From Granulosicoccus sp. (GTDB lineage Bacteria; Pseudomonadota; Gammaproteobacteria; Granulosicoccales; Granulosicoccaceae): a stretch of 64,000 nt of DNA. Positions within the stretch are counted from its first letter, which is position 1; every line of letters begins with the position of its first letter. The notes under the pieces are model-generated. The model ran no database searches. It saw only the letters and a list, made by a program, of their open reading frames with translations, and had not been told where the DNA came from. Shown piece after piece: positions 15,274 to 18,018 of the stretch. A program made the position numbers and the translations under genes. Where the stretch lies: assembly GCA_023301725.1 (NCBI GenBank), contig JALZUD010000055.1, positions 1 through 64,000 on the forward strand, given 5' to 3'.

Positions 15274-15792
15274 CTAATGCTTTTTGGGCGCAATGACCAT
15301 AACCATTTGCCTGCCTTCCAATTTAGGGAACTGTTCAACTGTACCCAGCTCGGCTAAATCTTCTTCAACACGCTTAAGCAATTTGGCACCCAACTCTCTA
15401 TGCGCCATCTCCCGACCACGAAAACGCAGTGTGATCTTGGTTTTGTCGCCGTTCTCCAGAAACTTCACCAGGTTCTTCAACTTGACCTGGTAGTCACCAT
15501 CCTCGGTGCCGGGACGGAACTTGATTTCCTTGAGCTGTGCCGTTTTCTGTTTCTTACGACCTGCATTCTGCTTCTTGTTAGCCTCGAACTTGAATCGGCC
15601 GTGATCCATGATCTTGCAAACAGGGGGAGAGACGTTTGGAGAGATTTCGACAAGGTCAAGCCCTGCCTCTACCGCTGTTCCCAATGCTCTTTCAATCGGA
15701 ACTACCCCGATTTGTTCACCCTCGGCAGAAATAAGCCGCACTTCGGAGACGTCGATTTCGTCGTTCTTCCGGTTAATTTTCTTGGCAGAGAT
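15274..15792 (-). CDS. infC: translation initiation factor IF-3
   Basis: IF3 family ([26 protein letters not shown]); in-frame extension (I)[19 protein letters not shown] to an ATC codon preceded by GGAGG; stop 15274. Confidence 0.93.
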
Positions 15793-15795
15793 GGA

Positions 15796-17736
15796 TCAGC
15801 CCTCCTGCGTGGCTGTATTAACAGCGCCTTGGCCACGAGTTGTGACCTCTTTATTAAGCATCAAATTAAGTTCTTCCAAAGTTAAAACACCCAAGTCTTC
15901 ACCGCTGCGCGTCCGCACGGCAACTGACCTACTTTCGAGTTCCCGATCGCCTACGACCAGCAAGTATGGCACTCGCTGTAACGTCCATTCACGAATCTTG
16001 AAACCCACCTTCTCGTTACGCACGTCACTCTGTGCGCGTAACCCTCTATTCTGCAACACTTCAGCCACTTCTTCAACGAAGGCGCTCTGTTTATCCGTAA
16101 TATTCATGACAACGGCCTGCACAGGCGACAGCCACAGTGGCAGTTTACCTTCAAAGTTCTCTATAAGAATACCAATGAAACGCTCAAATGACCCAAGAAT
16201 GGCTCGATGCAGCATTACTGGCGTTTGACGTTCGCCTTTTTCATCGATATAACTGGCGTCAAGCCTTCCGGGCATAGAAAAATCTACCTGCATGGTGCCG
16301 CACTGCCACACTCGGCCGATGCAATCTTTTAATGAAAATTCTATTTTAGGGCCGTAAAAAGCGCCTTCACCTGGTAGTTCTTCCCAAGGAAGTTGCTTGG
16401 CATCCAGTGCGTCCGCCAGCGCTTTTTCAGATTTATCCCAAGCTTCATCACTACCAACGCGCTGCGGTGGTCGTGTTGACAGACGATAGATAATTTCTTC
16501 AAAGCCAAAGTCTTTGTACACTTGATGTAGGAAATCAATAAACGAGCTAACCTCATCCTGAATTTGCGATTCTGTGCAAAAAACGTGCGCATCGTCTTGT
16601 GTGAACGCTCGGACGCGCATGATACCGTGCAATGCACCTGACATCTCGTTGCGGTGACAAGAACCAAACTCAGCCAAACGCAACGGTAGATCGCGATAAC
16701 TTTTCAGCCCCTGATTGAATACCTGCACGTGGCACGGACAGTTCATGGGCTTTACGGCATAGCTTTTGTCCTCGGTTTCCACAGTAAACATGTTGTCGCC
16801 AAATTTATCGGCGTGTCCGCTGCGCTCCCACAAGGAAAAGTCCACTACTTGGGGGGTCTTTATCTCTTGATAGCCATGGGCGACCTGCTGCTTGCGCATG
16901 TAGTCCTCTACTTCAAGGTAGATCGCCCACCCCTTCGGATGCCAGAACACCATGCCAGGTGCCTCGTCCTGCAAGTGAAACAGATCTTGTTGCTTGCCAA
17001 TACGACGATGATCGCGCTTTTCGGCTTCAGCCACATTATGCAGATGGGTCTTTAGCTCCTTAGGGTTGGCAAACGCCGTTCCATAAATTCGTTGCAACAT
17101 GGCGTTATTGGAGTCACCACGCCAGTAAGCGCCCGCCAGCTTAGTCAGTTTAAATGCCTTGAGATGGCCCGTGTGAGGCACATGCGGCCCTCGGCACAAA
17201 TCAGTAAAATCGCCTTGCGCATACAAAGACAAGGTTTCGCCAGCAGGGATAGAGTCGAGAATCTGTGTTTTATAGTCCTCGCCCATGCCCTTGAAAAACG
17301 TCATGGCGTCATCGCGCTCCATCGTTGAGCGTTGCAGCGGAATGGCTTGATCAGCTAATTCTTTCATGCGTTTTTCGATAGACTCGAGATCCTCTGGCGT
17401 GAATGAGCGCTCGTAATCAAAGTCGTAATAGAACCCACCTTCAATTACTGGTCCTATTGACACCTGAGTTGATGGAAACAGCTGCTTAACCGCCTGAGCT
17501 AACAGGTGCGCTGTGCTGTGCCGGAGCAAATCGAGTGCTTCATCGCTTTTGTTGGTCACAACCGCTAGGCGAGCGTCGCCGGTGATGGTATGGCTAGCAT
17601 CAACCAATTCCCCATTGACCATGCCAGCAAGTGTCGCCTTAGCGAGGCCGGCACCGATGTCTGCAGCGACATCCATAACGGTAACTGGATTGGGATACTG
17701 CCGAGTGGAGTCATCGGGCAGAGTAATTGTAGGCAT
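15796..17736 (-). CDS. thrS: threonyl-tRNA synthetase
   Basis: 646 aa; [52 protein letters not shown]. Confidence 0.97.
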
Positions 17737-17766
17737 AAAAAGTTGCGCTCTTATTGATCTTCAGTG

Positions 17767-17787
17767 GTGACCCCTACGATGGGCCAC
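17767..17787 (-). promoter_or_regulatory. thrS leader hairpin resembling tRNA-Thr anticodon arm (proximal copy)
   Basis: Minus strand GTGGCCC-ATCGTAG-GGGTCAC: 7-bp stem (one G-U), 7-nt loop with U33-CGU-A37 arrangement, 30 nt before thrS ATG. Confidence 0.65.
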
Positions 17788-17803
17788 GTGGTGGTGGTCA
17801 GTG

Positions 17804-17824
17804 GTGACCCTTACGAAAGGCCAC
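17804..17824 (-). promoter_or_regulatory. thrS leader hairpin resembling tRNA-Thr anticodon arm (distal copy)
   Basis: Minus strand GTGGCCT-TTCGTAA-GGGTCAC: 7-bp stem with wobbles, loop UU-CGU-AA; tandem copy 37 bp from the proximal one. Confidence 0.65.
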
Positions 17825-17900
17825 ATGGATCGAGTTCGTGTCTATCAAGGTATGTTACAGGTGAAATCGATGTGAATCTTTTAAATAGTTTAGATCATTG

Positions 17901-17929
17901 TTGACCTTGTGCGGACACTTGCTTACACT
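17901..17929 (+). promoter_or_regulatory. sigma70-type promoter for tRNA-Val
   Basis: TTGACC, 17-bp spacer, TACACT, then GC-rich discriminator TGCGCCC just before the tRNA. Confidence 0.7.
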
Positions 17930-17941
17930 TGCGCCCACGGC

Positions 17942-18018
17942 AGGCGCGTAGCTCAGTTGGTTAGAGCACTACCTTGACATGGTAGGGGTCGTTGGTTCGA
18001 ATCCAATCGCGCCTACCA
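17942..18018 (+). tRNA. tRNA-Val(GAC)
   Basis: AGGCGCGTAGCTCAGTTGGTTAGAGCACTACC-TTGACAT-GGTAG...GGTTCGAATCC...CGCGCCT-A-CCA. Confidence 0.95.

Follow-up and report, generated by a model that had tools for sequence, protein, structure and literature searches.

The thrS gene of Granulosicoccus sp. is preceded, in the window analysed here (the whole stretch of 64,000 nt), by two 21-nt hairpins on the thrS strand, 37 nt apart, both carrying a CGU anticodon-like loop and a CACUGA tail. These very probably form an autogenous translational operator bound by threonyl-tRNA synthetase (ThrRS), judging from the sequence comparisons set out below: a compact tandem variant of the kind found in E. coli. 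The position of the element, its homology to an E. coli operator hairpin, its RNA structure, its loop signature, its restriction to thrS and its genus-wide doubling are established directly. The thrS operator is the classic case of an mRNA that copies a tRNA, and nearly all that is known of it comes from E. coli. New here are the compact tandem kept throughout a genus, its repeated origin, the freedom of loop position 34, and a tail of unexplained role.

The two hairpins in the thrS leader

The gene lies on the minus strand (15796-17736) and encodes a full-length ThrRS of 646 aa, with both the N-terminal and the anticodon-binding domains. In E. coli-type operators, the N-terminal domains of ThrRS are needed for repression. 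A full-length alignment covers 641 of the 642 E. coli ThrRS residues at 58% identity, and the first residues, MPTITLPDD, line up with the beginning of the E. coli protein, supporting the ATG at 17736-17734 (minus strand) as the start codon. Downstream of thrS follow infC, rpmI, rplT, pheS and pheT, the usual gammaproteobacterial order. Upstream of the hairpins, the gap at 17828-17941 (minus strand) must contain both the promoter of thrS and the beginning of its leader; no minus-strand promoter in this gap passed a simple scan.

The distal mimic, CAU-GUGGCC-UUUCGUAAG-GGUCAC-CACUGA (17798-17827, minus strand), was delimited from its letters and from model matches of 45.6 and 48.0 bits. After the flank CAU (17827-17825), GUGGCC (17824-17819) pairs with GGUCAC (17809-17804) around the 9-nt loop UUUCGUAAG (17818-17810), with CGU at 17815-17813, and the tail CACUGA follows (17803-17798). 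A linker, CCACCAC (17791-17797, minus strand), leads from this tail to the proximal flank; it is short and not U-rich. In E. coli-type operators, an unpaired linker between the mimics helps to dock the 30S subunit. The proximal mimic, CAC-GUGGCC-CAUCGUAGG-GGUCAC-CACUGA (17761-17790, minus strand), is the counterpart of E. coli operator domain 2. It has the flank CAC (17790-17788), the stem GUGGCC (17787-17782) with GGUCAC (17772-17767), the 9-nt loop CAUCGUAGG (17781-17773) with CGU at 17778-17776, and the tail CACUGA (17766-17761). The remaining letters before the start codon are a probable ribosome-binding stretch, AGAUCAAUAAGAGCGCAACUUUUU (17737-17760, minus strand), with a weak Shine-Dalgarno-like UAAGAG, which a protein on the proximal hairpin would cover.

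Each hairpin thus consists of a 6-bp stem and a 9-nt loop, and when the latter is read as a 7-nt anticodon loop it offers U33, C34 G35 U36 and A37. An initial annotation, made from the sequence alone, had described an imperfect direct repeat with a 37-nt period upstream of thrS, a proximal hairpin ending 30 nt before the ATG, and loops with U33, CGU and A37 resembling tRNA-Thr(CGU). The coordinates confirm the repeat and the distance, and the loop bases are as described in both copies. The same annotation drew 7-bp stems with 7-nt loops, and here six of the pairs stand but the seventh (U-G or C-G, on the loop side) fails in 38 of 90 distinct relatives. As this pair is not conserved, the conserved form is the 6-bp stem with the 9-nt loop. 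The annotation did not mention the CACUGA tail, whose CACUG also occurs in the E. coli operator hairpin.

In the E. coli K-12 thrS leader, the same hairpin stands in the same place before the same gene: UAU-GUGAUC-UUUCGUGUG-GGUCAC-CACUGC, ending 15 nt before the ATG. From loop to tail, the distal window copy has 18 of 21 nt in common with it (UUUCGU..GGGUCACCACUG), including the whole of GGGUCACCACUG. The tail is not needed for likeness to an anticodon arm, so the resemblance reflects homology and goes beyond mimicry of the same tRNA. Of the four domains of the E. coli operator, the second mimic is domain 4, a longer hairpin unlike domain 2 and about 34 nt upstream of it. Two mimics are common to E. 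coli and the window; the difference is that both window mimics are copies of one compact hairpin. Where E. coli has the dissimilar domain 4, the window repeats the domain 2 hairpin almost unchanged, tail included, with about 16 nt separating it from the proximal stem downstream. The window contains a hairpin before the ribosome-binding site, a loop with G35 and U36, homology to domain 2 (through GGGUCACCACUG), a compensated stem and a second mimic upstream, as well as the full-length synthetase.

Conservation and spread of the motif

To describe conservation we compared 100 relatives, comprising 90 distinct sequences. Pairs changed on both sides fill 41 cells, against 9.5 in shuffles, and none of 500 shuffles reached as high a covariation; the second stem pair, for example, goes from U-A to C-G in 24 cases. 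On the thrS strand 539 of 540 stem cells pair, compared with 476 of 540 on the opposite strand, where fewer pairs hold because G-U pairs are frequent. The element therefore acts as an RNA of the thrS strand. Stem covariation and loop conservation in relatives were the check proposed with the initial annotation, and the element passes it on both counts, with G35 and U36 present in 100 of 100 relatives.

These pairs bear on whether the copies might instead be a DNA repeat bound by a transcription factor, as an imperfect direct repeat near the promoter region could suggest. Among the conserved pairs behind the symmetry are G-U pairs, which function only in RNA of the thrS strand, and the distance from the start codon is near-fixed in over 120 genomes, which makes a DNA site highly improbable. 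Transcription attenuation by a Thr-rich leader peptide is also very unlikely. The tail can be read as ACC ACU (Thr-Thr), and the window does have a 21-codon ORF with two Thr codons running over both copies (17826-17761, minus strand). However, the ATG of this ORF belongs to the motif, and only 30 of the 100 relatives have it; likewise, only 12 of the 24 genus leaders contain any ATG-initiated ORF that reaches 10 codons and includes two Thr codons. What is conserved is the G-U pairs and the loop bases, not a reading frame, and a search of the thrS leader found no terminator.

Within the loop, position 34 is C in 67, G in 22, U in 7 and A in 4 of the 100 relatives; position 33 is U in 95, and so not fixed, and position 37 is A in 91 and G in 9, all counts to be read with the caveat that the model that fetched the relatives favours its own loop. 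Most matches clear the cut by 15 bits or more, though, and a single wrong loop base should be penalised by far fewer. Bacterial threonine identity elements include anticodon bases, G35 and U36 among them (PMC9976931). A free position 34 beside an invariant G35 and U36 is the pattern expected if ThrRS reads the loop. Over a hundred natural variants show that the selected loop bases are 35 and 36, not 34. A pattern search for tRNA-Thr genes matched only a gene for the GGU isoacceptor.

The CACUG tail (motif positions 25-29, in nearly all leaders) is conserved at 96 to 100% per base, as highly as the loop. We found no role assigned to it. A possible additional pairing below the stem, between CA of the flank and UG of the tail, fits 99% of cells but hardly varies. 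Some copies within the genus have lost the tail (both copies in L015, the proximal in L019, the distal in L022 and L023), showing that it is not strictly required.

To see how specific the motif is, we used two covariance models: R1, built from 43 hairpins, and R2, built from 100 sequences without E. coli and without any member of the window's family. Over the 4.3-Mb genome, the only strong R2 matches are the two thrS copies, at 48.0 and 45.7 bits, with rough per-genome E-values of 2e-14 and 2e-13. The next match (22.5 bits) lies inside a gene resembling a LysR-type regulator. No Rfam 15 family matched the window leader, even at E up to 1.

The R1 search covered 370 gammaproteobacterial genomes, 364 of them good, and gave a match in 131 of the 364. 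Most of the sampled genomes have none, so hairpin control of thrS is not universal. Outside the genus, 125 of 132 matches adjoin thrS, 124 directly upstream and one on a contig with the thrS start, and for 122 of these 124 a distance of 6 to 19 nt separates the end of the tail from the thrS start. The weak off-target matches that we inspected fall in coding sequences or look like chance, with the exception of one locus (L195) and a thrS divided between two contigs. Only two matches in a phylum sample fell outside the class, both weak and resembling coding sequence. Where relatives have a single thrS hairpin, as in Marinobacter, Zhongshania and Thiothrix, the motif, the tail and the place are the same, mostly in one copy. 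In relatives whose leader has a Shine-Dalgarno match, this match nearly always begins 3 to 13 nt beyond the stem, and it is located 4 to 13 nt ahead of the thrS start. A protein on the hairpin would therefore cover it. We found no survey of the class-wide spread of the thrS operator in the open literature, a coverage that does not take in the main operator papers.

Two observations from this search stand apart. L195 (G316:C18:33395-33424), at a distance from thrS, is a degenerate copy of the thrS leader and start region that a past duplication may have left behind. L216, titled as a Klebsiella pneumoniae MAG, has a thrS 69% identical to the window's (58% for E. coli) and only a weak hairpin match, and on these two grounds its title is probably wrong.

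Doubling of the hairpin

Two copies are present in every one of the 24 readable genus leaders, one further contig being cut off and left out of the count. In the other genera of the family, all 19 readable genomes have exactly one strong match, including one in which the contig ends close upstream of the site. The doubled leaders form one supported clade in a ThrRS tree (98/94). Since the genus is doubled throughout, its relatives are single and the doubled leaders share one clade, a single duplication at the base of the genus, retained ever since, is the most likely origin. This bears out the compact tandem duplication of the initial annotation. Copy spacing ranges from 29 to 38 nt across the genus, mostly 33 to 38. 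Local pairing holds for 287 of the 288 stem cells in the 24 leaders, and in one species the stem of the distal copy shows a compensated change (GCGGCC/GGUCGC). This pattern indicates that both copies are under selection.

Could the tandem serve instead as a two-state switch, alternating between one long cross-paired hairpin (off for ThrRS) and two local mimics (on)? The most stable fold predicted for this stretch (-24.3 kcal/mol) does cross-pair the copies, hiding both loops, and a cross-paired minimum is also predicted in several relatives. However, the copies can cross-pair because they are alike, as any two near-identical hairpins could. Where copies have diverged, it is local pairing that is kept (287/288 cells, against 279/288 for cross-pairing); broken cross pairs occur in 8 of 25 tandem leaders, a broken local pair only in L022 (its distal end pair). 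Family relatives with a single copy could not cross-pair at all. A switch thus seems unlikely, and we take the cross-paired form to be a by-product, at most a side state, of two hairpins that would act as local mimics. The whole leader is no more stable than its shuffles (z -0.46).

Doubling is also found elsewhere. The Oceanospirillales bacterium XeTr1 (L209) has a separate tandem, with copies 37 nt apart, loops GGU and AGU, and tails in both. When we scanned for a distal hairpin with the loop signature 15 to 60 nt upstream of the proximal motif, 9 of 162 leaders had one, compared with 0.9 expected from shuffles (200 sets, maximum 4); one of the nine (L226) resembles an ordinary terminator. 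Further thrS mimics, with unlike stems, occur in family f42 (L144, L145 and L160, the last being genome G303), and in three f42 species the distal stem is kept by compensation. In G303 a further hairpin (12-bp stem, UACGUAA loop) brings the number before thrS to three in a row. We lean slightly towards seeing in all this an old class-wide regulatory RNA absent from Rfam, in which one module (the hairpin with its CACUG tail) has repeatedly been multiplied into arrays of two or three, in this genus, in Oceanospirillales, in f42 and in others, perhaps for avidity towards the ThrRS dimer, with the tail as a second contact.

Proposed mechanism and neighbouring genes

E. coli ThrRS binds two anticodon-arm mimics in the thrS leader and blocks the 30S subunit (PMC7373986, PMC3858243, PMC9976931). 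A similar mechanism very probably operates here. The leader RNA would fold its two tRNA-Thr anticodon-arm mimics next to each other, immediately before the ribosome-binding site. An excess of free ThrRS over tRNA-Thr would let the dimer grip the hairpins through its anticodon-binding domains, which would recognise G35 and U36, and the bulky enzyme would keep the 30S subunit away from the start region. Plentiful tRNA-Thr would compete ThrRS away, allowing translation of thrS. The tandem sites, being near-identical, could be bound by both subunits of one dimer, as proposed for E. coli, or by two dimers. With stems about 16 nt apart in the window and about 34 nt apart in E. coli, the linker is much shorter here, so one dimer on both hairpins should be regarded as a possibility only. 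The initial annotation had proposed an operator similar to that of E. coli, and the hairpin homology, the covariation and the invariant G35 and U36 support this; from them we infer ThrRS binding and repression, as well as competition by tRNA and the possible seating of one dimer on both hairpins.

Synthetase binding to an anticodon-arm-like mRNA element is likewise described for yeast HisRS, AspRS and ThrRS (PMC6542539, PMC9956033), although the yeast mimics are eukaryotic, unrelated in sequence and differently placed in the mRNA. T-box leaders of Gram-positive bacteria likewise put thrS under the control of threonine tRNA supply and also involve the threonine anticodon, raising the question of whether the window leader is a T-box binding uncharged tRNA-Thr. 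However, T-boxes are a different RNA, bind tRNA rather than the enzyme and act mostly on transcription. The window leader has neither a T-box match in Rfam (up to E 1) nor a terminator, and its loop carries the anticodon itself, not a Thr codon, leaving a T-box with a negligible probability. The Rfam, terminator, ORF and strand-pairing evidence together led us to reject the T-box, leader-peptide attenuation and the DNA repeat.

For the ThrRS-bound operator that we favour, the natural one-, two- and three-hairpin forms could serve to find out if two mimics are required by the dimer. RNA family libraries could also take up the motif, where it would annotate about a third of the sampled gammaproteobacterial genomes.

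The neighbourhood of thrS offers two further observations. A tRNA-Val(GAC) gene (17942-18018) adjoins thrS and is divergent from it in the window; in many other Gammaproteobacteria (for example L028, L033, L036 and L037) it lies directly upstream and co-directional with thrS, and there the two may share a common transcript. At the other end of the gene, infC seems to start at AUC (AGGAGGGCUGAUCC-AUC UCU GCC AAG; window 15795-15730, minus strand), comparable to the rare start codon AUU of E. coli infC, and a plain ORF list sets this start too late, at a GTG at 15741.
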